Assembly: GCA_020849475.1 (NCBI GenBank)
Contig: JADLGE010000076.1
Span: 1 to 64,000, forward strand
Reading direction: 5' to 3'
DNA: 64,000 bases
Source of the DNA: Gammaproteobacteria bacterium
GTDB taxonomy: Bacteria; Pseudomonadota; Gammaproteobacteria; Ga0077536
Each line of letters opens with the position of its first letter. Position 1 is the stretch's first letter. The position numbers and the translations under genes were made by a program. Shown one piece after another: positions 18,903-54,555 of this stretch. The notes beneath the pieces are model-generated. The model searched no databases. It had not been told where the DNA came from and saw nothing but the letters and a program-made list of their open reading frames with translations.

Positions 18903-18924
18903 GTGACCCAACGCATCCTCTCTG

Positions 18925-18995
18925 AATGTCAGACTGAAGTCTGACCCACAATGGATTGCACTCGCACTGTGTGGGTCAAACTTCAGTCTGACATT
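18925..18995. repeat. REP pair, family A (copy 1), heads facing inward
   Basis: Two 26-base arms at 18925-18950 and 18970-18995, in inverted orientation, together 71 bp. Each arm, read from its GTGG head, is GTGG followed by a hairpin with GTCAGAC/GTCTGAC stem and TTCA loop (one mismatch in the right arm). The same element recurs at 26065-26135 and 48597-48668. GTGG plus hairpin is the format of REP sequences mobilised by RAYT transposases. The rest of the 18844-19088 gap shows no coding sequence. Confidence 0.85.
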
Positions 18996-19088
18996 CCAGC
19001 TCGATACGCTGGCCTTCGCCGCTGGGGTCGAATGCAAATGCATTCAAAACCACAACGCGAATTCGTCTTTGCATGAAAGGAAGACATC

Positions 19089-22712: not shown

Positions 22713-24845
22713 ATGGAAGTCTCTTCGTCGCGCGTCGTCTCGGACGATGTTTTGCCGTCCAACGTTGCCAGCGCACCTGCCGCCGGCAGCGACAGAAGCC
22801 GCGTGACGCGCCTGCACGTCAAGCGTTACGCGCTCTTGCACTCCCAGCTGCCGGGCACGGTGGTCGGCTCGCTGGTGGCCGCCGGGCTCGTCACCCTGCT
22901 GCTGTATTCACACGACCCCGGCCTGCCGCTTTGGCCGTGGCTGGCGGCGATGTTGGGCGTCACGCTACTGCGCATCTCGCAGTTGCTCTGCTATCGGAAT
23001 ATCCGCATCACGCCGTCCAATTCAGCCTACTGGCGCAGGGCTTACATCGTCTGCAACATGGTCGCCGGGGCGGCTTGGGGTACGCTGGTTTTCGTGCCGG
23101 ATATCCACGAGTTCCGCCAGGCCATGCCGGTACTGGTGGTGCTATGCGGCGTGATGGCCGCTGCGGGCGTGCTGTACGCCGCATCGCTGCGCGCCTTCAT
23201 CGCATTTGCCGTACCCATCATGGGCGCGATTCTCATCAAGCTCTGGGGCCATCCCGAGCTTCGCGAGCTGGTGCCGCTGATGCTCGCCTATTCCCTCATG
23301 GTTGGCGGTGGCGCCCTGCGCACGGCGCGCGCCCTGTCCGAGTCGTTGGCAGTGCAACTCGAGAATGTCGAACTGCTCGATTCCCTGCAGGAGGAGCGCG
23401 ACCGCTTCCGTCTGCTCAATGCCGAGCTCGAATCCCGCGTCAGCGATCGCACCACCGAACTTTCCACCAGCAACGAATTGCTGCAACAGGAGATCGCCGA
23501 GCGCGATCGCGTGCAGCGCAAGCTCCTCTACCAGGCCAGCCACGATGCCTTGACCTCGCTGGTCAATCGCACCGAATTCGAATCGTGCCTGCGCAAGATA
23601 GTGTCCGACCGGCGTCGCACGCGTCGGCCGCATGCGGTGTGCTGCATGGATCTCGATCAGTTCAAGCTGGTCAACGACACCTGTGGTCACGGCGCCGGCG
23701 ACGAACTTCTGCGGCGCCTGTCAGGCATGATGCAGAGCCAGGTGCGTACCGGTGATGTGCTGGCGCGCCTCGGCGGCGACGAGTTCGGCATCCTGCTGTA
23801 CGACGCCGGCCTCAACGAATCCATGCAGCTCATCGAACGGCTGCGCGACATGATTGAGAACTTCACTTTCCTGTGGGAACGCCGCCAGTTCAAGGTCACC
23901 GCAAGCTTTGGCGTCGCCATCGTCACCGACGACTACGACTCGGTGACCGATGTGTTGCGCGATGCCGATACCGCCTGCTTCCTGGCCAAGGATCGTGGCC
24001 GCAACTGCGTGCACGTGCACGTGCAGGACGACGCCACGGTGTCCGAAAGACGTCAGCAGATGGCCTGGATCAACCGCCTCGACGCCGCCATGGCCGATGG
24101 CCGCCTGCTGCTCGCGCGCCAGCCCATCGTGCATGGCGCCGGTCAAGGCGCGCCGCACTGGGAAGTGCTGCTGCGCCTGCGCGACGAAGACGGTGACATT
24201 GTCACGCCGGGTTTCTTCCTGCCGGCCGCCGAACGCTTCGGCATGATGCCGCGCATCGATCGCTTCGTGGTCGAGCGCATCACCGATTACCTGGCTGACG
24301 ATAGCGAGGGCGTCGATTGCTATGCCATCAACCTGTCGGGCGCATCCCTGGGCGATGAGCGCCTGATTGCGTTCCTGGTGGAGCGCGTCAAGCGTTGCGC
24401 GAATCCGGCGCGCCTGTGTTTCGAGATCACCGAAACCTCGGCCATTTCCAATCTAACCCAGGTGCGCGAGATCATCGGTGAACTGCGCGGTCTCGGTTGC
24501 CAGTTCTCGCTCGACGATTTCGGCACCGGCATGGCTTCGTTCGACTACCTGCGCTCACTGCCGGTCGACTTCCTGAAAATCGACGGCAGCTTCATTCGCG
24601 ACATCGCCGAAAATCCGATTTCTCTGGCGATGGTGCGCGCCGTCAACGACATCGCCCATCTGATGGGCATGCGCACGGTGGCCGAGTTCGTCGAGAGCCA
24701 CGAGATAGCCAGCGTGCTACGTGGCATCGATGTCGACTACCTGCAGGGCTACGCCTTCGGTCGTCCGTGCTTCTTCATGCCCGGCGACAGCGACCATGAA
24801 GTTGTGTCCCATATCGACACCGTGCAGTTCGTGGTCAACGCCTGA
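22713..24845 (+). CDS. membrane-bound GGDEF-EAL cyclic-di-GMP protein
   Basis: A 710-residue protein. About five to six hydrophobic helices (residues 45-210) form a MASE-like sensor. A coiled segment of roughly residues 215-275 (ESRVSDRTTELSTSNELLQQ region) leads into a GGDEF domain with intact GGDEF at 354-358. An EAL domain follows in which the signature is EVLLRL instead of EALLR. Other phosphodiesterase residues are present: NLSG, FEITETS, DDFGTG, LKIDGSF, AEFVES and YLQGYAFG. Both synthesis and hydrolysis of c-di-GMP therefore look possible. It lies 8 bp after the DUF1566 gene and could belong to that transcript. Confidence 0.9.
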   Translation: MEVSSSRVVSDDVLPSNVASAPAAGSDRSRVTRLHVKRYALLHSQLPGTVVGSLVAAGLVTLLLYSHDPGLPLWPWLAAMLGVTLLRISQLLCYRNIRITPSNSAYWRRAYIVCNMVAGAAWGTLVFVPDIHEFRQAMPVLVVLCGVMAAAGVLYAASLRAFIAFAVPIMGAILIKLWGHPELRELVPLMLAYSLMVGGGALRTARALSESLAVQLENVELLDSLQEERDRFRLLNAELESRVSDRTTELSTSNELLQQEIAERDRVQRKLLYQASHDALTSLVNRTEFESCLRKIVSDRRRTRRPHAVCCMDLDQFKLVNDTCGHGAGDELLRRLSGMMQSQVRTGDVLARLGGDEFGILLYDAGLNESMQLIERLRDMIENFTFLWERRQFKVTASFGVAIVTDDYDSVTDVLRDADTACFLAKDRGRNCVHVHVQDDATVSERRQQMAWINRLDAAMADGRLLLARQPIVHGAGQGAPHWEVLLRLRDEDGDIVTPGFFLPAAERFGMMPRIDRFVVERITDYLADDSEGVDCYAINLSGASLGDERLIAFLVERVKRCANPARLCFEITETSAISNLTQVREIIGELRGLGCQFSLDDFGTGMASFDYLRSLPVDFLKIDGSFIRDIAENPISLAMVRAVNDIAHLMGMRTVAEFVESHEIASVLRGIDVDYLQGYAFGRPCFFMPGDSDHEVVSHIDTVQFVVNA

Positions 24846-24945
24846 CGAATCTCCGCGCAAGCCACCGCGCTGCCGCGATATCATGACGATTGCTCGTTGC
24901 GCTACCGGCGCGCGGCAGATCATCGGTATCCCGGAGCGCGTTTTC

Positions 24946-26010
24946 ATGTCAGGTCAGTTCAGCAATTCATCCACCGACATCCTCGAGGACGTCAACGTCA
25001 CCGCTGTCGCGCCCCTGCCGGCGCCGGCGGTCATGCATGCGCGCCTGCCGCTTTCGACGCAGGCGCACGCCACGGTCGCCGATACGCGCCGCGCCATCAA
25101 GGCCATCATCGAGGGTCTTGATGCGCGCCTGCTGGTGGTGGTCGGGCCTTGTTCCATCCACGATTTGACCGCCGCCCGCGATTACGCCGCGCGCCTCACC
25201 GCGCTGGCCGCCGAAGTGTCGGAGCATTTGCTGATAGTGATGCGCGTCTATTTCGAGAAGCCGCGCACCACCACCGGCTGGAAGGGCTATATCAACGATC
25301 CGCACCTCGACGACAGCTTCGACATCGAGCACGGCCTGACCCACGCGCGTGCCTTCCTGCTCGAATTGGCCAAGGCCGGCATGCCGACCGCCACCGAGGC
25401 GCTGGACCCGGTGGTGCCGCAGTACCTGGGCGATCTCTTGAGCTGGTATGCGATCGGCGCACGGACCACCGAATCCCAGACTCACCGCGAAATGGCCAGC
25501 GGCCTGTCGGCGCCCTGTGGCTTCAAGAACGGCACCGACGGCAGCATCGACGTCGCCATCAATGCGATTCTGGCCGCGCGCAGCCCGCATCATTTCCTCG
25601 GCATAGACTCCGATGGCCGCACCGCCGTCATTCGCACCCGCGGCAATGCCGATGCGCATCTCATCCTGCGCGGCGGCACGCAGCCCAACTATGGCAGCGA
25701 CGTGGTGGCGGCGTGCCGCGAGCGCCTCGCCGCGCAAGGGCTGCCGGGCGCCATCATGATTGATTGCAGTCACGGCAATTCAGCGAAGGACCCGGCGCGC
25801 CAGGTGACGGTCGCGCGCGAAGTGGTGAGCCGCCGCGCGCAGGGCGAGGCCGGCATCATGGGACTCATGATCGAAAGCCACCTGGGCTGGGGCAACCAGC
25901 CCTTCAAGACCGGCGCGGCGGATCTCAAATATGGCGTGTCAGTCACCGATGCATGCATCGACTGGGCGACCACGGCAGCGTTGTTACGGGAGTTGAACGA
26001 GGCCTTGTAG
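24946..26010 (+). CDS. class I 3-deoxy-7-phosphoheptulonate (DAHP) synthase
   Basis: A 354-residue AroF/AroG/AroH-type DAHP synthase, joining PEP and erythrose 4-phosphate at the entry of the shikimate pathway. Motifs are VVVGPCSIHD, RVYFEKPRTTTGWKGY, KNGTDGSIDVA, RGGTQPNY, MIDCSHGNS and MIESHLGWGNQP. The start ATG 24946 has GGAG about 10 bases upstream and begins the family's regulatory N-terminal segment. Which aromatic amino acid inhibits it cannot be told with confidence, so I give no isozyme letter. Its TAG stop codon lies inside the head of a REP repeat. Confidence 0.92.
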   Translation: MSGQFSNSSTDILEDVNVTAVAPLPAPAVMHARLPLSTQAHATVADTRRAIKAIIEGLDARLLVVVGPCSIHDLTAARDYAARLTALAAEVSEHLLIVMRVYFEKPRTTTGWKGYINDPHLDDSFDIEHGLTHARAFLLELAKAGMPTATEALDPVVPQYLGDLLSWYAIGARTTESQTHREMASGLSAPCGFKNGTDGSIDVAINAILAARSPHHFLGIDSDGRTAVIRTRGNADAHLILRGGTQPNYGSDVVAACRERLAAQGLPGAIMIDCSHGNSAKDPARQVTVAREVVSRRAQGEAGIMGLMIESHLGWGNQPFKTGAADLKYGVSVTDACIDWATTAALLRELNEAL

Positions 26011-26174
26011 GTGCGAATTCATCCGCACATTCATGCCGAGGTTGAGACTCTGGAGTAAGGCTCGAATGTCAGACTGAAGTCTGACCCACAGAAACTCGCT
26101 CTTCTTCTTTGTCGGTCAAACTTCAGTCTGACATTCACAGTCGCTGCGCCATGTGCGAATGAATTCGCACCTAC
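26007..26174. repeat. nested composite repeat: REP family A pair inside REP family B pair
   Basis: Outer family B units occupy 26007-26028 and 26153-26174, each a GTAG head plus a hairpin of the type GTGCGAAT/ATTCGCAC, heads outward. Inside lies a family A pair at 26065-26135 (71 bp, same length as copy 1, heads inward). The composite fills the whole gap between the convergent DAHP synthase and oxidoreductase gamma-subunit genes. The TAG stop codons of both genes (26008-26010 plus strand, 26173-26171 minus strand) are formed by the GTAG heads. Confidence 0.9.
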
Positions 26175-26707
26175 AGGGCTTTCGCCAGGCGTTGCCCTTC
26201 ACGCAATGCCGCGATGTTCAAATCGCGAAACTTGGGCGGTGTCGAGCGTGACACCGCCTGCTCCAGTGTTTCGAAATCACATAGCGACGACAGACTCACC
26301 AGCGCGCCGAGGCTTACGACATTGGCGACGCGCGGATTGCCAAGCTGGCGCGCGCTGGCGGTCGGATGCAGGGCATGCATGGCGAAGCCGCCTTGCGGCG
26401 GCGCCGGCACGCGGTCGGCGTCGATGATGACCAGCGCATGGGGATCGAGTAATTCGTCGGCGTCTTCCAGCGCCGACTGGTCGAGCAGCACCAGGTAGTC
26501 GAGACGCGTCACCAGCGGATAGTCGACGCTGTCGCGCGCCACCACCAGATCCGAGCGGCTCGCGCCGCCGCGCGAGGTCGGTTCATAGGTCTGTGATTGC
26601 GCCACGCGCATGCCTTGCGCGACCAGCGCGTCGGCGAGCAGACGGCCGGCGAGGCCCAGACCCTGGCCGCCGGTGCCGGCCAGGCGAATCTGACAGTCTT
26701 CCTTCAT
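26171..26707 (-). CDS. 2-oxoacid:acceptor oxidoreductase, gamma subunit
   Basis: A 178-residue POR/KOR gamma-type Rossmann protein that begins QIRLAGTGGQGLGLAGRLLADAL and contains QSQTYEPTSRGGASRSDLVV. It is the last gene of a five-gene minus-strand operon, and its ATG overlaps the preceding beta-subunit stop (ATGA). In separate-subunit enzymes this chain shapes CoA and cluster access. The TAG stop lies in the family B repeat. The partner alpha and beta genes are immediately upstream in the operon. Confidence 0.87.
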   Translation of the reverse strand: MKEDCQIRLAGTGGQGLGLAGRLLADALVAQGMRVAQSQTYEPTSRGGASRSDLVVARDSVDYPLVTRLDYLVLLDQSALEDADELLDPHALVIIDADRVPAPPQGGFAMHALHPTASARQLGNPRVANVVSLGALVSLSSLCDFETLEQAVSRSTPPKFRDLNIAALREGQRLAKAL

Positions 26708-27546
26708 GGTGCGACTCCGCCGCCGTGTTGGGCGCAATGGCTGCGCCACGCCGCGCCGTATTCCACGCGTTCGTCGCGCGCCAGGATGCCGGTCTGCCAC
26801 GGGCCGGGGCGGAACGGCCGCTCGACCTGGTTGCCGTAGGATTCCGGTCGTACATCGTGCTTCTGGCGCAGGACCATTTCCGGCGACGAACCGAGTTCAT
26901 TCTTGCGACCGTAGATCTCGGTACAGTCCGACATCACCTCGACGAAAGAAAAGCCCGCATGGGCGATGCCTTCACGAATGAGGTTCTTCAGCGCCGGCAA
27001 CTGCAGCGTCACTTCGCGCCCGACGAAACTCGCGCCGGCTGCCTGCGCCAGTTTGCAGGCATCGAAGCGCGGCTCGTGATTGCCGAGCGGCGTGGTGGTG
27101 GTATAGCGGTCGGCGCTGGTGGTGGGCGAGGCCTGGCCGCCGGTCATGCCATAGACCTCGTTGTTGAGCATGAGACAGGTCAGATCGAGATTGCGTCGGC
27201 AGGCGTGAATGAGGTGGTTGCCGCCGATGGCGAGACTGTCGCCGTCGCCAGTGATGACGACGACAGTGAGATCGGGTCGTGCCAGCTTCAAGCCGGTCGC
27301 AAACGCCAAGGGTCGACCGTGGGTGGTGTGATAGGTGTTGGCGTCGACATAGGCCGACAAGCGCCCCGAGCAGCCGATGCCGCTCACCACCGCGAGCTTG
27401 TCCTTGTTGAGATCAAGCTCATGGATGGCCCACAGCAGCGCGCGTAGCGCGATGCCATGGCCGCAGCCCGGACACAAAAAGTGCGGCATGCGATCGAGGC
27501 GCAGGTAGTCGCGAATGTCGAAGTCCTTGCTCACGGGTCGATTCAT
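26704..27546 (-). CDS. 2-oxoacid:ferredoxin oxidoreductase, beta (TPP) subunit, second locus
   Basis: A 280-residue TPP subunit: HFLCPGCGHGIALRALLWA, VVSGIGCSGRLSAYVDANTY, GRPLAFATGLKLARPDL, TPP motif GDGDSLAIGGNHLIHACRRN and NNEVYGMTGGQASPTT. It differs in style from korB at 17788 (NNEVYGMTGGQ here, NNGVYGLTKGQ there), so the two loci are different subfamilies and not a recent duplication. The closest relatives by motif are the VOR/KOR-type enzymes with separate subunits. It sits 12 bp after the alpha-subunit gene. The substrate is unknown. Confidence 0.86.
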   Translation of the reverse strand: MNRPVSKDFDIRDYLRLDRMPHFLCPGCGHGIALRALLWAIHELDLNKDKLAVVSGIGCSGRLSAYVDANTYHTTHGRPLAFATGLKLARPDLTVVVITGDGDSLAIGGNHLIHACRRNLDLTCLMLNNEVYGMTGGQASPTTSADRYTTTTPLGNHEPRFDACKLAQAAGASFVGREVTLQLPALKNLIREGIAHAGFSFVEVMSDCTEIYGRKNELGSSPEMVLRQKHDVRPESYGNQVERPFRPGPWQTGILARDERVEYGAAWRSHCAQHGGGVAP

Positions 27547-48079: not shown

Positions 48080-48583
48080 GTGGATGAAGCTGCCAAGAAA
48101 ACCGCGCTGCGCATGATCCCTTATGGTCTGTATGTTCTGACCAGTGCCAACGCCGAGGGCGAAGTCGCCGCCGCCACCGTCAACTGGGTGACCCAGACCG
48201 CTTTCAAGCCACCGCTGGTGGTGGTGGGCGTGAAGACCGATTCCGGCGCCCATGAGATCATCAAACAGTCGCGCCACTTCGCCTTGAACGTGCTCGGCAA
48301 GCAGCAGTCAGGACTCGCCTTCGCGTTCTTCAAGCCGGCCGAGCGCGATGGTCACACCGTCAACGGCGAACACTTTCATTTTGGTGTCAGCGGCGCGCCC
48401 TTGCTGGACAGCGCCGCCGCCACCATCGAATGCCGCCTGACCGACACGGTCGAGAACGGCGACCACTCGGTGTTCATCGGTGAAGTCATCGACGCCAGCG
48501 TCAAGGACGCGCCGGCCGGACGGCCAGACGATGTCACGCTGACCTTGAAAGACCTTGGCGACAAGGTTTTTTACGGCGGCTGA
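48080..48583 (+). CDS. flavin reductase-like domain protein (short FMN-binding)
   Basis: A 167-residue protein with the split-barrel flavin reductase domain: IPYGLYVLTSANAEGEVAAATVNWV, then PLVVVGVKTDSGAHEIIKQSRHFALNVLG, and a C-terminal IGEVIDASVKD. Start GTG 48080. Members supply reduced FMN to monooxygenases or form part of rubredoxin-linked reductases. It could serve the two flavin-dependent oxygenases in the window (1046, 19089), but no linkage supports this. A family A REP pair follows 13 bases after its stop codon. Confidence 0.86.
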   Translation: MDEAAKKTALRMIPYGLYVLTSANAEGEVAAATVNWVTQTAFKPPLVVVGVKTDSGAHEIIKQSRHFALNVLGKQQSGLAFAFFKPAERDGHTVNGEHFHFGVSGAPLLDSAAATIECRLTDTVENGDHSVFIGEVIDASVKDAPAGRPDDVTLTLKDLGDKVFYGG

Positions 48584-48596
48584 TAGTAGAGGTTTC

Positions 48597-48668
48597 TGTG
48601 GGTCAGACTTCAGTCTGACATTCTCGAAGTGGCAATGCATTCAATGTCTGACTCAAGTCTGACCCACA
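48597..48668. repeat. REP pair, family A (copy 3), heads facing outward
   Basis: Arms at 48597-48622 and 48643-48668, 72 bp in total, each GTGG plus the GTCAGAC-type hairpin. The orientation is opposite to copies 1 and 2: here the GTGG heads point outward. The right arm stem has one change. It fills the gap between the convergent flavin reductase and DUF2167 genes. Confidence 0.85.
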
Positions 48669-48680
48669 AATCATCCCGAT

Positions 48681-49550
48681 TCATTGCTTGCGTGCGAACA
48701 GCTTGCGCACGGCGGCAAACACCGCCACCACCGCCAGCACCAGGAATTTCTTCAACGCGATGGCGACCGCGATGAGCTTGGCGAACAGCCCGGCCTTGGC
48801 GGCGGCGCCGCCCGCCACCAGCGCGGCGAGGCCGTAGGCGGCGGTCTTGTCGATATCGGGATCGAAATCCGCATAGCCATTGCCCGGGCTGAACTCGGTG
48901 TAGGCCAGCACGTCTTTCATGCGCTCTTGTATGGTCGGTAACTGGCTCATTCCCGACACTGCGTTCAACACCAGCACGCCTTTGCGCCCGAGGATGCGGA
49001 TGTTGTAGTTGAGCGTGTTCTCGCTGGCGCTGGGCACCCGCAGTTCCTTGGCCCAGTGCAATTTGTGCGCGGCCTTGTCGTAATAGGGGCGCGCCGCCCA
49101 GCCCACCAGGTCCAGCGTTGGCTGACCTTGCTTGGCACGCTCGGTGTTGTCGGCGGTGGTCGCCTCCTGCATTTCTTTCATGAGCTTGTCGTAATCGATG
49201 CCGTCGGCGTCGTCGTCCGACACGTGACCGTCTTCTTCGTAGGTGATGACCACGCCCCAGCCATGGGCATCGAGCGGGCCGACATCACTCGGGAACAACA
49301 TGCCGAGCGTGCCGCCACCCTCGGGGTTGCCCCACGCCTGTTCCAGCACGCGCCGCGTGTCCTCGGGGTTGAGATAGCGAAAGCCCGCCGGCAGCTTGAG
49401 CACGGCGACGCCATTGGGCAGCGTCACTGCACCTTGCTGATATTCGAGGCTGGCTTCGAAGGCTTCGCGCGTGATCGGCGCGGCATCTTCTTCGGCGGCG
49501 CCGACCGTGATGGCGCCCGTCAGGCACAGCAGCAGCAATAACAATCGCAT
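48681..49550 (-). CDS. DUF2167 domain exported membrane protein
   Basis: A 289-residue protein. The signal peptide is LLLLLLCLTGAITVGAAEE. The DUF2167 core includes LPAGFRYLNPEDTRRVLEQAWGNP (positions about 54-77), GWGVVITYEEDGHVSDDDA and LVGWAARPYYDKAAHKLHWAK. Near the C-terminus there is one hydrophobic helix (AGLFAKLIAVAIALKKFLVL) and a basic end (RKLFARKQ). This layout is usual for the family, whose function is unknown. It lies 52 bases after the M50 protease gene on the same strand and is probably co-transcribed with it. Confidence 0.88.
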   Translation of the reverse strand: MRLLLLLLCLTGAITVGAAEEDAAPITREAFEASLEYQQGAVTLPNGVAVLKLPAGFRYLNPEDTRRVLEQAWGNPEGGGTLGMLFPSDVGPLDAHGWGVVITYEEDGHVSDDDADGIDYDKLMKEMQEATTADNTERAKQGQPTLDLVGWAARPYYDKAAHKLHWAKELRVPSASENTLNYNIRILGRKGVLVLNAVSGMSQLPTIQERMKDVLAYTEFSPGNGYADFDPDIDKTAAYGLAALVAGGAAAKAGLFAKLIAVAIALKKFLVLAVVAVFAAVRKLFARKQ

Positions 49551-50462: not shown

Positions 50463-53400
50463 ATGACGAGCCGCCGACTTCTTATCGTCAACCGTGGCGA
50501 AGTGGCCTTGCGCATCATGCGCAGCGCCGCCGAGATGGGCTATCACACCGTCGCGGTGTACAGCGATGACGATGCCGACAGTCTGCATGTGACGCGTGCC
50601 GACAGCGCGCTGCGCATTGCCGGCCGCGGCGCGGCGGCCTATCTCGATGCGGGGGCCATCGTCGAACAAGCGCTCGCCGCGCAGTGCTGGGGCGTGCATC
50701 CGGGTTACGGATTTCTTGCCGAACAGGCGCGCTTCGGCGCGGCCTGTGAAGCGGCGGGCCTGGTGTTCGTCGGCCCGACACCGACGCAGCTCGCACTGTT
50801 CGGTAACAAGCTCGCGGCGCACGACCTCGCGCGGCAATGCAAGGTGCCGACCTTGCCCGCGTCCAATGCCCTCGCGTCCGCCACGGCGCTGGCGGATTTC
50901 CGCGCGGCGCAGGGTGCCCTGGTGGCCGTCGTGATCAAGGCCGCGGCCGGCGGTGGTGGGCGCGGCATGCGCGTGGTCGCGCCGGGTGTCGATGGAGCGC
51001 CGCTGTGGTCAGCCTGCACTTCGGAAGCCCTCGCGGCTTTCGGTGACGGCAGCGTGTATGCCGAGCGCTACATCGCCAATGCGCGGCACATCGAAGTGCA
51101 GGTGCTGGGCGACGGCCGCGGCGCGGTCACGCATCTGTGGGAGCGGGATTGTTCAACCCAGCGCCGACATCAGAAGCTGATTGAAATCGCGCCGGCGCCG
51201 CATCTCGACGCCGAGACCCGCGATGCGCTGCTGGATGCCGCGCTGCGCATGGCGCGTCATGCCAATTATCGTGGTCTTGGCACCTTTGAATTCCTGCTCG
51301 ATGCCGACAATGGCGCATGGTTCTTCATCGAGGCCAATGCGCGCCTGCAGGTCGAACACACCGTTACCGAAGAAGTGCTGGGGCTCGATCTCGTGGCGCT
51401 GCAGCTCGCGGTGGCCAACGGTGCGAGTCTCGCCGAGCTCGGCATGGATCAGCCGCCCGCCGCGCCGCGCGGCTACGCGGTGCAGGTGCGCATCAACGCC
51501 GAAGTGCTGGGTGAAGATGGCACGCCGCGTCCGGCCAGCGGCCGCATTACGCGTTTCGAACCGGCCACCGGCCCTGGCATCCGCGTCGACAGCGCGGCGC
51601 GCCGCGGTTATGCACCGAGCCCGGCGTTTGATTCGCTGCTGGCCAAGCTCATCGTGCATACCGCCGGTGATTTCACCCAGCTGCTGGCGCGTGCGCGCCG
51701 CGCGGCTGGCGAATTCGTGATTGAAGGCATCGCCACCAACCTGCCGCTGCTGCAGGCGGTGCTGGCCGAGCCGGTGCTCGCCGTCGGCGAACTCAACACC
51801 ACCTATGTCGAACAGCATGGCGCGGCCTTGATGCGTGCCGCCGCTGCGTTTGAAGTCGCCGAGAGCGCCACGACAGAAGTGAGTGGCAGTGCGCGCAGCG
51901 CGGTGACCGTGCCGGCCGGCTCGACGTTGGTGGCGGCGCCGATGCGCGCCAGTGTCGTCAGTGTCGACGTGACGCCGGGGATGACGGTCAAGCGTGGCCA
52001 GCAACTCGCGGTGCTGGAAGCGATGAAGATGCATCACGTGGTGTCGGCCGGCGCCGCCGGCACCATCACCGGCATCGTGGTGGCGGTCGGCGATGTGTTG
52101 GACGAGGGCGAGGCGCTGGCCTTTCTGGCCATCGACGCCAGCGCCGATGATAGCGAAGAAGTGCAGCGCGATATCGATCTCGACGCGACCCGCGCCGATC
52201 TCGAAGAAGTGCGCGCCGCCCACGCCTTGACGCTGGACGCCGCGCGACCCGAGGCAGTGGCCAAGCGCCGCAAGCTCGATGCACGCACCGCGCGTGAGAA
52301 TGTCGCGGACCTGTGCGACCCCGACAGCTTCATCGAATACGGTGCGCTCGCCATCGCCGCCCAGCGCCGGCGCCGCAGCGTCGACGATCTCATGAAGAAC
52401 ACGCCAGCCGACGGCATGATTGCTGGCTTCGGCACCGTCAACGCCGATCAGTTTGGCGCCGACAATACGCGCTGCGCGGTGATGGCCTACGACTACACCG
52501 TGCTGGCCGGCACCCAGGGCCATCACAATCACAAGAAGAAAGACCGGCTGTTCGAGATCGCGGCGGAATGGAAGACGCCCATCGTGTTCTTCACCGAGGG
52601 CGGCGGCGGCCGTCCGGGTGATGTCGACACCGATGAGCTGTGCATGAGCTGGCTCGATCTGAAAACGTTCGCGACCTGGCCCAAGCTGTCAGGCGTGGCG
52701 CCGCGCATTGCCGTCAATGCCGGGCGTTGTTACGCCGGCAATGCCGTGATCTTCGGCTGTGCCGACGTCACCATCGCAACCGCCAATTCCAATATCGGCC
52801 TGGCCGGCCCGGCCATGATCGAAGGCGGTGGCCTGGGCAAATTCAAACCCGAGGACATCGGCCCCATCGAAGTGCAGACCGCCAACGGCGTGGTCGACAT
52901 CGCCTGCGCCGATGAGCGCGAAGCAACCGCCGCCGCGCGCCAGCTGCTCGGTTATTTCCAGGGCGTGGCGCCGCACTGGACAGCGGTTGACCAGCGGCGC
53001 CTGCGCCACCTCATTCCGGAGAACCGACTGCGCGTCTACGACGTGCGCACCGTCATCCACGCGCTGGCCGATGAAGGCTCGGTGCTGGAACTGCGGCCGC
53101 ACTATGGCGTGGGCCTGCTCACCTGTTTCATCCGTATCGAAGGTCAGCCTTTCGGACTCATCGCCAACGATCCGCGCCATCTCGGTGGCGCCATCGATGG
53201 CGACGGCGGCGAGAAGGGCGGGCGCTTCCTGCAACTGTGCGATGCCTACAACGTGCCGGTGATTTCACTGTGCGACACGCCCGGCTTCATGGTCGGCCCC
53301 GACAGCGAGAAGACCGCGGCAGTGCGCCGCGGCTCGCGCCTCATCATCGCCACTGCCAACCTGCGCGTGCCCTTGTTCTGCATCGTGTTGCGCAAGGGCT

Positions 53401-53741
53401 ATGGCCTCGGCGCGCAGGCCATGTGCGGCGGCAGCACCCATCAGTCGTTCTTCACCATCGCCTGGCCGACCGCCGAGATGGGCCCCATGGGCCTCGAAGG
53501 CGCGGTCGAACTCGGCTTTCGCAAGGAGCTCGAGGCGACTCCCGATGCCGCCAGCCGCAAGGCCTTGTTCGATGAACTCGTCGCGCACATGTACACCAAG
53601 GGCAAGGGCGTGTCGGTCGCATCGGTGTGTGAGATAGACGCGGTCATAGACCCCGCCGAGTCGCGCACCTGGCTGCTGCGGGGCTTACGCGCCGCCGGCA
53701 AGGAACGGCGCGAGCCGCGACGCTTCGTGGATGTGTGGTAG
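50463..53741 (+). CDS. single-chain biotin-dependent acyl-CoA carboxylase (BC-BCCP-CT)
   Basis: A 1092-residue fusion. Biotin carboxylase occupies residues 1 to about 450 (LLIVNRGEVALRIMRSA; Lys159 of the ATP-grasp KAAAGGGGRGMRVV; EANARLQVEHTVTEEVLG). The biotinyl domain is at about 490-560 with biotinyl Lys522 in VLEAMKMHH. The carboxyltransferase is at about 580-1092, N- and C-lobes together (FIEYGALAIAAQRRR; FFTEGGGGRPGD; LCDTPGFMVGPDSE; GYGLGAQAMCGGS). Most acyl-CoA carboxylases split BC-BCCP and CT over two genes; the one-chain form is like long-chain acyl-CoA carboxylase (LCC). The TAG stop codon is formed by a REP head. The acyl-CoA substrate is unknown. Confidence 0.9.
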   Translation: MTSRRLLIVNRGEVALRIMRSAAEMGYHTVAVYSDDDADSLHVTRADSALRIAGRGAAAYLDAGAIVEQALAAQCWGVHPGYGFLAEQARFGAACEAAGLVFVGPTPTQLALFGNKLAAHDLARQCKVPTLPASNALASATALADFRAAQGALVAVVIKAAAGGGGRGMRVVAPGVDGAPLWSACTSEALAAFGDGSVYAERYIANARHIEVQVLGDGRGAVTHLWERDCSTQRRHQKLIEIAPAPHLDAETRDALLDAALRMARHANYRGLGTFEFLLDADNGAWFFIEANARLQVEHTVTEEVLGLDLVALQLAVANGASLAELGMDQPPAAPRGYAVQVRINAEVLGEDGTPRPASGRITRFEPATGPGIRVDSAARRGYAPSPAFDSLLAKLIVHTAGDFTQLLARARRAAGEFVIEGIATNLPLLQAVLAEPVLAVGELNTTYVEQHGAALMRAAAAFEVAESATTEVSGSARSAVTVPAGSTLVAAPMRASVVSVDVTPGMTVKRGQQLAVLEAMKMHHVVSAGAAGTITGIVVAVGDVLDEGEALAFLAIDASADDSEEVQRDIDLDATRADLEEVRAAHALTLDAARPEAVAKRRKLDARTARENVADLCDPDSFIEYGALAIAAQRRRRSVDDLMKNTPADGMIAGFGTVNADQFGADNTRCAVMAYDYTVLAGTQGHHNHKKKDRLFEIAAEWKTPIVFFTEGGGGRPGDVDTDELCMSWLDLKTFATWPKLSGVAPRIAVNAGRCYAGNAVIFGCADVTIATANSNIGLAGPAMIEGGGLGKFKPEDIGPIEVQTANGVVDIACADEREATAAARQLLGYFQGVAPHWTAVDQRRLRHLIPENRLRVYDVRTVIHALADEGSVLELRPHYGVGLLTCFIRIEGQPFGLIANDPRHLGGAIDGDGGEKGGRFLQLCDAYNVPVISLCDTPGFMVGPDSEKTAAVRRGSRLIIATANLRVPLFCIVLRKGYGLGAQAMCGGSTHQSFFTIAWPTAEMGPMGLEGAVELGFRKELEATPDAASRKALFDELVAHMYTKGKGVSVASVCEIDAVIDPAESRTWLLRGLRAAGKERREPRRFVDVW

Positions 53742-53821
53742 CTGCGAATTCATTCGCACATCAAGACCAGCCGCACGAACGGCGAGCCGCGCCATCAAGG
53801 TGCGAATGAATTCGCACCTAC
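53738..53821. repeat. REP family B pair spanning a convergent gene junction
   Basis: Units at 53738-53759 and 53800-53821, heads (GTAG) outward, with hairpin stems TGCGAAT/ATTCGCA and GTGCGAAT/ATTCGCAC. The pair makes up the entire intergenic region. The TAG stop codon of the carboxylase gene (53739-53741) and that of dprE2 (53820-53818, minus strand) lie inside the GTAG heads. Confidence 0.9.
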
Positions 53822-54555
53822 AGGTTCATGCGTTTGAAGATTTTTTCTGGAATCGCGCGGATGATCATCATGATGGCGCGCCAGAACCACGGCAGGTAAA
53901 CCACGTCGCGCTTGTTTTCGATGGCCGCGATGATGCCGTCGGCAATGGTCGCGGGTGTGGTCCACAGCGGGCCTTTCTTGAAGGCCGCCGTCATCGGTGT
54001 GTCGACGAAGCCGGGCTTGATGGTCAGCACTTGAACGCCATGTTTGCACAGGCGATTGCGTAACCCCGACAAGAACACCTCCAGCGCGGCCTTGCTGGCG
54101 CCGTAGACATAATTGCTCTGCCGACCGCGATCACCGGCCACTGAACCTATCACCGCGATGCAGCCGCGCCCTTGGGCCTGCATGACATTGGCGAGCGCCG
54201 TCAGCAAGCTCGTGGTCGACAGCGTATTGACCTCGAACGCAGCGCGCAGCGCGGCCAGGTCCTGTTCGCAGCGGGTCTGATCGGGCAACACGCCGTGTGC
54301 GAGCAGCGCCACGTCGAGTCCTTCGAGTGCAGTGTTGGCGCTGTCGAGCAGGGCCGCGGCGTCGAAGGGGCTGGCGAAATCGCACACCGCTGTTGTCACC
54401 GAGGTTGCGCCGCGCACTTCAAGGTCGCGCGCCATGGTCGACAGCCGTTCGCTGTCGCGGGCGACGAGATGGAGGCGCGCGCCTTGTGCCGCGTAACGAC
54501 GCGCGGTCGCTTCGGCTATCGCGGAAGTGGCGCCCAACAGCAGGACTTTCAACAT
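53818..54555 (-). CDS. dprE2: DprE2-like decaprenylphosphoryl-2-keto-ribose reductase (SDR family)
   Basis: A 245-residue short-chain dehydrogenase. The NAD(P) motif is LLLGATSAIAEATARRYAAQ, with AHG near residue 95, catalytic Ser in IGSVAGDRG and YxxxK in YVYGASKAALEVFL. The C-terminus IMMIIRAIPEKIFKRM closely resembles the end of Mycobacterium Rv3791 (YVMMVLRHIPRSIFRKL). Together with DprE1 it epimerises polyprenylphosphoryl-ribofuranose to the arabinofuranose form; DprE2 performs the reduction. It lies 3 bases downstream of dprE1 in the same orientation, the same functional pair order as Rv3790-Rv3791. Confidence 0.88.
   Translation of the reverse strand: MLKVLLLGATSAIAEATARRYAAQGARLHLVARDSERLSTMARDLEVRGATSVTTAVCDFASPFDAAALLDSANTALEGLDVALLAHGVLPDQTRCEQDLAALRAAFEVNTLSTTSLLTALANVMQAQGRGCIAVIGSVAGDRGRQSNYVYGASKAALEVFLSGLRNRLCKHGVQVLTIKPGFVDTPMTAAFKKGPLWTTPATIADGIIAAIENKRDVVYLPWFWRAIMMIIRAIPEKIFKRMNL

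Follow-up and report, generated by a model that had tools for sequence, protein, structure and literature searches.

Between two convergent genes of the window, the whole stretch of 64,000 nucleotides analysed here, positions 26007-26174 carry two REP units of one class (A) enclosed by two of another (B). The arrangement raises the question of whether one repeat family inserted itself into a copy of another, or whether all four units belong together. Mosaics of this kind are known, and the present one seems to stem from a single repeat system and not from one family that jumped into another. We consider it probable that the array is hybrid and BIME-like, its units being drawn from stem classes A and B of a single REP/RAYT system.

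Three genomes of the genus were compared: the present one (a draft, 95.8% complete), that of a sister species (a draft, 92% complete) and a third genome. The sample from this genome covers 1,947,724 bases with 199 A and 162 B units, counted at up to seven mismatches and joined into clusters when at most 60 bp apart. That from the sister species covers 650,061 bases with 83 A and 91 B units and is enriched, about half of it having been chosen because it contained matches.

Anatomy of the array

A motif search finds the four units B-A-A-B where the earlier note on this DNA had placed them, in the gap between the convergent genes, and 100 shuffles of the window gave no match to either the A or the B motif. 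From left to right they are B+ (26007-26032, plus strand, head GTAG at 26007-26010), A- (26064-26089, minus strand, head GTGG), A+ (26111-26136, plus strand, with a degenerate head, GTCG) and B- (26149-26174, minus strand, head GTAG). They depart from their consensus sequences by 1, 0, 2 and 2 bases, respectively, A- being an exact match. A tail-to-tail B/A spacer of 31 bp (26033-26063), a head-to-head A/A spacer of 21 bp (26090-26110) and a short tail-to-tail A/B spacer of 12 bp (26137-26148) separate them; the first two lengths fall within the main spacing modes of this genome and the last outside them. The perfect symmetry once claimed for the array does not hold, as the B-to-A spacers differ in length (31 and 12 bp), GTCG stands in place of GTGG in the A head on the right and the units have diverged unequally.

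The locus had also been described as a GTGG pair of one family within a GTAG pair of another. The families are not unrelated, since 19 of 26 positions are identical between the two consensus sequences. The key point behind the description is one of orientation, the heads of B pointing outward and those of A inward. The inner pair does match in length a copy near 18925 that has no B unit within 60 bp, though this length is 73 bp (18924-18996) and not the 71 bp given previously.

The REPs alternate in orientation (B+ A- A+ B-) and represent more than one class, as those of a hybrid BIME do. Tandem repetition of a basic module is absent, and a search for further units next to the array found none, so that a single four-unit array is better called BIME-like than a multi-module BIME. 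Nor is it a REPIN, the inner A pair having its heads inward and the outer B pair spanning 168 bp with other units inside. The units themselves are GT(A/G)G REPs, with a GTAG or GTGG head 5' of a palindrome and a high copy number. As RNA the complete array forms a single long hairpin whose B arms close at the stop codons of the flanking genes (-85.9 kcal/mol, z -10.7); the DNA fold has a z of -10.3 and the reverse strand reaches -92.1 kcal/mol.

Two stems on one frame

The consensus sequences are GTGGGTCAGACTTCAGTCTGACATTC for A and GTAGGTGCGAATTCATTCGCACATTC for B. Read from the profiles, they have in common a frame of 26 bp made up of the head GTRGGT, a seven-pair stem, the loop TTCA and the tail ACATTC. 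Seven of the 26 positions set them apart, one in the head (its third base) and six in stem pairs 7-20, 8-19 and 11-16, so an exact A unit scored as B shows seven mismatches. At each of these three pairs the change affects both sides and is compensatory, and standard pairing is found there in 353, 347 and 342, respectively, of the 361 units sampled from this genome. Since compensatory stem changes and one head base are the only differences, B is an A unit in which the stem and one head base have been exchanged.

Both classes are abundant. The 5.4 Mb of this genome contain 284 A and 289 B matches with at most two mismatches, near-perfect palindromes being counted on both strands, against none for a reversed-pattern control. 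Among 58 genomes searched, this one included, A (a 19-mer with at most one mismatch) was found only here and in the sister species. B (at most two mismatches) gave 289 matches here, 346 in the sister species, none in the third genome of the genus and 1, 1 and 5 in three others. The third genome has a sister class of REPs, GTAGGTCGGACTTCAGTCCGACATTC, which differs from A by three bases and shares the GTAG head of B (record L229, 1024-1049; record L230, 860-885 and 905-930). The occurrence of several stems on one frame across the genus fits the orthoswitch model (Nunvar, 2013; PMC3686654).

In mixed clusters of the sister species B diverges from its consensus by 0.48 of 18 positions and A by 1.29, a figure that is inflated by a G-C variant at pair 10-17. 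The lower divergence of B does not favour the idea that B is simply the older class.

One RAYT gene found in each of two genomes

It had been suggested that two RAYT genes should be sought. Whole-genome searches with Pfam Y1_Tnp and a 13-row RAYT profile found one in this genome (contig C79, 96785-97231) and one in the sister species (contig C487), each with A units, and no B, adjoining. With the 13-row profile no second RAYT appeared in this genome, and in the sister species only hits with E values of 0.002 and 0.07. Both genes exceed the NCBIfam REP_Tyr_transpos cut-off, that of the sister species by way of an identical RAYT in a public record (L251; CAMCBY010000487.1). This record is titled Klebsiella pneumoniae, though the sister species is listed in the genus of the present genome, and is probably a mislabelled MAG.

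The RAYT has TPMT and cinA as neighbours in all three genomes, with argC on the other side in this genome and the sister species, and this common neighbourhood indicates one inherited locus. In this genome A units flank the gene on both sides. In the sister species two A units lie on the 3' side and none was found within 932 bp on the 5' side at up to nine mismatches; the REP-RAYT-REP layout is therefore complete only in the present genome. Palindromes near the RAYT of the third genome have other stems, GTAGGGCCGATTTCAATCGGCC and GTAGGGCGGGTTTCAACCCGCC. No B units were found near the RAYT of either this genome or the sister species; as both assemblies are drafts, a B-specific RAYT could be missing, and the single-RAYT result is strong and not final.

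A rule of orientation

The sample from this genome contains seven clusters of the order B+A-A+B-, 14 of A-A+B-, 20 lone A-A+ pairs, 25 lone A+A- pairs and two one-sided B+A+A- clusters. That from the sister species contains six B+A-A+B- arrays, four A-A+B-, two one-sided B+A+A- and one A+A-B-B+. Further B-A-A-B composites, for which the earlier note had proposed a search, thus exist in both genomes. The order B+A+A-B- is absent from both samples (1.95 and 0.65 Mb, respectively). Inner and outer pairs do not always occur together; A and B often stand apart in this genome, so that the array is not the basic unit.

Among 53 A-B neighbours at most 50 bp apart in this genome, 39 are tail-to-tail, one is head-to-head and 13 point in the same direction. 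When B blocks were placed at random in non-gene DNA (200 runs), the respective means were 2.1, 2.2 and 4.2 and the maxima 6, 6 and 12. By eye, at least five of the 13 same-direction joints involve A units tailed at both ends, the direction of which is ambiguous. The sister species has 20 tail-to-tail, three head-to-head and three same-direction joints, against 1.7, 1.5 and 3.2 expected. Head-to-head joints in this genome are 43 A/A, six B/B and one A/B. This rule of joints alone places B outside and A inside. Moreover, the 43 A-A+ pairs have 86 sides in all and B adjoins 28 of these, from which 4.6 two-sided arrays are predicted and seven are observed, so that a fixed unit is not needed to account for the arrays of this genome.

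Spacing is regular in places. Head-to-head A/A units lie 17-23 bp apart in 37 of the 43 pairs of this genome, and tail-to-tail spacers of 30-33 bp make up 14 of 18 A/A, 15 of 20 A/B and 18 of 20 B/B spacers in the sister species. Tail-to-tail A/B spacers in this genome have modes at about 0, 18-20 and 30-31 bp, which are roughly multiples of a helical turn, and are mostly without sequence likeness. The spacers of the arrays of this genome are likewise mostly unrelated to one another. Elsewhere in the window an A+A- pair (48598-48667) with its heads outward and an 18-bp spacer lies between convergent genes (48080-48583 and 48681-49550); measured to the first base of each TGA stop, the starts of its heads are at distances of 17 and 16 nt.

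The array of the window consists of two tail-to-tail B/A joints that meet at a head-to-head A/A joint. We propose that the RAYT, or its ancestor, would have spread both classes in trans. A would be the class now cognate to the RAYT, and B a sister class or an older one that remained when the REPs adjoining the RAYT changed class, a change for which the other stems beside the orthologous RAYT of the third genome offer a parallel. Arrays would arise by the joining of units and occasionally be copied whole. The present one may have settled between two genes with its B heads as both stop codons, and each transcript would then meet a long hairpin right at the end of translation. As A and B are one head base and three stem pairs apart and one RAYT was found, the part that the RAYT reads, be it head, loop or stem, becomes testable, as does the serving of two classes by one enzyme.

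Whole-array copying in the sister species

Three arrays of the sister species (C149, 6539-6736; C189, 4958-5155; C70, 7241-7438) align over their full length. Spacers of C149 and C189 agree at 22 of 31, 28 of 31 (the middle spacer) and 20 of 32 positions, and the two are 83% identical over 206 bp; C70 is more distant. With both flanks compared, the homology of C149 and C70 ends at most four bases from both B heads. For C189 the comparison of the right flank covered no more than four bases, and the outer B units of this array are worn. Common spacers mark the three as copies, and whole arrays can evidently be duplicated.

These copies are an argument for the view that B+A-A+B- moves as a single element of about 198 bp bounded by the B heads, of which the window array would be a worn copy. 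The G-C variant of A at pair 10-17 is concentrated in clusters with B in the sister species (17 of 34 A units there, one of 49 elsewhere), where two-sided arrays also outnumber one-sided ones, six to four. This genome shows the reverse, with one-sided A-A+B- clusters twice as common (14 against 7), two-sided arrays at the number that independent joints allow and A/B tail-to-tail spacings that vary. The spacers of the window array have no specific likeness to the copies either. Comparison of its left spacer with those of the sister-species arrays gave lowest shuffle p values of 0.0005, 0.0025 and 0.0075 in 24 comparisons. Homology of the 31-bp spacer with those arrays was nevertheless rejected, since unrelated A/A and B/B spacers of this genome exceed their shuffles equally (the A/B list, in which some spacers had been entered twice, in both directions, was excluded from this comparison). 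The likeness is unspecific and the window array is not tied to the copies. We therefore regard a fixed composite as an unlikely account of the array, and prefer that of joined units of two classes, with some arrays copied whole in the sister species.

B heads as stop codons

The gene on the left (24721-26010, plus strand) encodes a 3-deoxy-7-phosphoheptulonate synthase of the aroFGH family that scores above the TIGR00034 cut-off. Its protein match covers the sequence from residue 85-90 onward, and translation probably starts downstream of 24721. The gene on the right (26171-26800, minus strand) resembles the gamma subunit of 2-oxoacid:ferredoxin oxidoreductases; its best NCBIfam E value is 2.2e-32 with no model above cut-off, and the best full-length matches start at residue 35-37. 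Both end on the TAG of a B head, at 26008-26010 (plus strand, B+) and 26171-26173 (reverse strand, B-).

This is a common situation for B. Among genes facing a B head in the sample from this genome, 44 of 84 stop on its codon (43 on TAG and one on TAA), 36 stop before it and four beyond it. None of the 41 genes facing an A head stops on it; 39 stop before and two beyond. Genes for both counts were called by GC content at third positions and not by a gene finder, and a second rough gene caller gave 37 B-head stops among 1588 genes of this genome. In the sister species 7 of 15 genes facing B and none of three facing A stop on the head, and in a larger sample 10 of 506 genes end on a B head. By eye, the B consensus can be read through in two of its three frames, and random insertion in gene ends should therefore produce about two read-throughs for each TAG; four were seen against 44. 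Two gaps in the sample have B-head stops on both sides, and both lie in the window (26010-26171 and 53741-53818). The second holds a B+B- pair (53738-53821) with a 32-bp spacer, the heads of which supply both stops of the convergent genes 50463-53741 (plus strand) and 53818-54555 (minus strand). In the third genome the aroG orthologue (contig C319 near 15933; record L228) seems, by eye, to stop on the TAG of the GTAG head of a REP with another stem.

Six of 155 orthologue pairs have the B-head stop in one species only. Their partners stop on TGA (three), TAG (two) or TAA (one), the unaligned C-terminal tails measure 0-8 residues and in three of the six cases the partner's stop is itself followed, after 8-37 nt, by a REP unit. 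Since the partners end within 0-8 residues, the B unit replaces the natural gene end. Among other genes TAG is the stop in 14.5% in this genome and in 19.4% in the sister species. Six pairs are too few to settle whether B units fell on TAG stops already present; a pre-existing TAG is, however, not needed.

GTAG REPs are reported often to supply the TAG of flanking ORFs (Di Nocera, 2013; PMC3733652). Our literature search, as far as the accessible text of the papers extends, found no published comparison of two head types within one genome. The head base decides whether a REP can end a gene, and A and B are thereby mutual controls for the study of REPs at stop codons. Ribosome stalling has been reported for E. 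coli REPs at most 15 nt from a stop codon (PMC12306157, citing earlier work). Taken with the long hairpin at the two stops, this makes a local effect of the array on both transcript ends plausible. Scans for terminator-like sites and promoters in 25700-26500 found none.

Another view is that the units are kept as a protein-binding site or as a 3'-end structure of RNA, with selection setting their spacing and place. The units are indeed conserved while most spacers are not, gaps in this genome gather around two lengths, 20 and 31 bp, that differ by about one helical turn, and the B heads on stop codons, the low z of the hairpin and the stalling reported in E. coli all agree with a role at gene ends. 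The lack of a terminator-like site at the array speaks against it, as do the A REPINs of the sister species, which have common spacers and flanks and occur in a mobile element. We are doubtful that selection for such a site explains the array.

A related reading takes the contrast of the heads further. One RAYT would serve two stem classes whose head base sets their task. GTAG would dock exactly on gene ends, where its head turns into the stop codon and a hairpin comes to lie immediately downstream, and GTGG, unable to form a stop, would fill the interior. The placing of B on stop codons would in that case be directed, by target choice or positive selection, and not the remnant of random insertion. 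The scenario strikes us as improbable.

The question of nesting by insertion

The remaining proposal, that a B REPIN came first and an A pair was transposed into its spacer, is very unlikely, because an inserted A REPIN has its heads outward and predicts the order B+A+A-B-, whereas the heads of the inner pair point inward, opposite to those of an A REPIN, and that order is unseen in both samples. Empty B pairs do exist, 12 of the 16 tail-to-tail B/B gaps in this genome measuring 30-33 bp. The B/A gaps of one array (C10, 154726) are 1 and 31 bp and sum to the spacer of an empty B pair, and one-sided B+A+A- clusters occur. The B/A gaps of the window array, however, sum to 43 bp. An empty B pair at the matching site, which the earlier note had suggested looking for, was not found. 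In the third genome the aroG orthologue is followed directly by REP-like sequences with other stems, and no matching oxidoreductase gene lies within about 4 kb beyond it. A match on contig C21 of the sister species was rejected as the orthologous site, being a 57% relative and probably a paralogue. Of the two origins first offered for the array, insertion of an A REPIN into a B REPIN is thus unsupported, and a single composite unit holds in part, for the copied arrays of the sister species.

The sister species does contain an example of real nesting. An inverted repeat, GGGTGYAGGTCTSAAACTGA, has 63 ends there (at most two mismatches) and none in this genome or the third. It bounds a MITE-like element of 168-260 bp with 20-bp inverted ends, of which six two-ended copies were read (L226, 1101-1360; L223, 5695-5862; L225, 4207-4428; L236, 9051-9309; L234, 174-433; L210, 205-461). 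All six enclose an A+A- REPIN, and all six are inserted in the centre of a B unit or a variant of it. The 8-bp target duplication is perfect in four copies (AATTTATT twice, AATGAATT and AATAAATT) and matches at 7 of 8 and 6 of 8 positions in the others. A is thus the cargo of this MITE-like element and B its target. The window array has none of these marks of nesting with target duplication. Insertion sequences that enter REPs at the symmetry axis have been described (PMC1525189); our literature search found no REPIN-carrying element that does so.

Comparison with known systems

The closest parallels are the hybrid BIMEs of Stenotrophomonas maltophilia (Nunvar, 2010; PMC2817692), in which inverted REPs of more than one class alternate, spacers are non-homologous and palindromes are kept by complementary changes. 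There the classes belong to different RAYTs and several basic modules follow one another head-to-tail, whereas here one RAYT was found, with A beside it, and the array is a single one of four units. With REPINs (Bertels & Rainey, 2011; PMC3116915) our units share the habit of forming inverted doublets of near-constant length that fold into hairpins. The A+A- and B+B- pairs of the sister species, of about 83-84 bp, fit this pattern, and its spacer-sharing A pairs are A+A- with a 31-bp spacer. REPINs have their heads outside, unlike the inner A pair of the window, and the outer joints of the array pair two classes.

The GTAG REP dimers (Di Nocera, 2013; PMC3733652) offer further likenesses in their hybrid dimers, in spacers that are alike in length and not in sequence and in the TAG that they lend to ORFs. 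Hybrid dimers of two GTAG families are reported there to form about 10% of the dimers of S. maltophilia. The accessible portion of that report contains no count by head type, whereas GTAG and GTGG heads are compared here (44 of 84 against none of 41). Finally, the orthoswitch model (Nunvar, 2013; PMC3686654) describes related species whose orthologous RAYTs have REPs of different classes on their flanks, and abundant REPs without a RAYT of their own, both of which have counterparts in this genus. Unlike the cases described there, the two classes considered here also occur together within single arrays, where their orientation is strongly biased.
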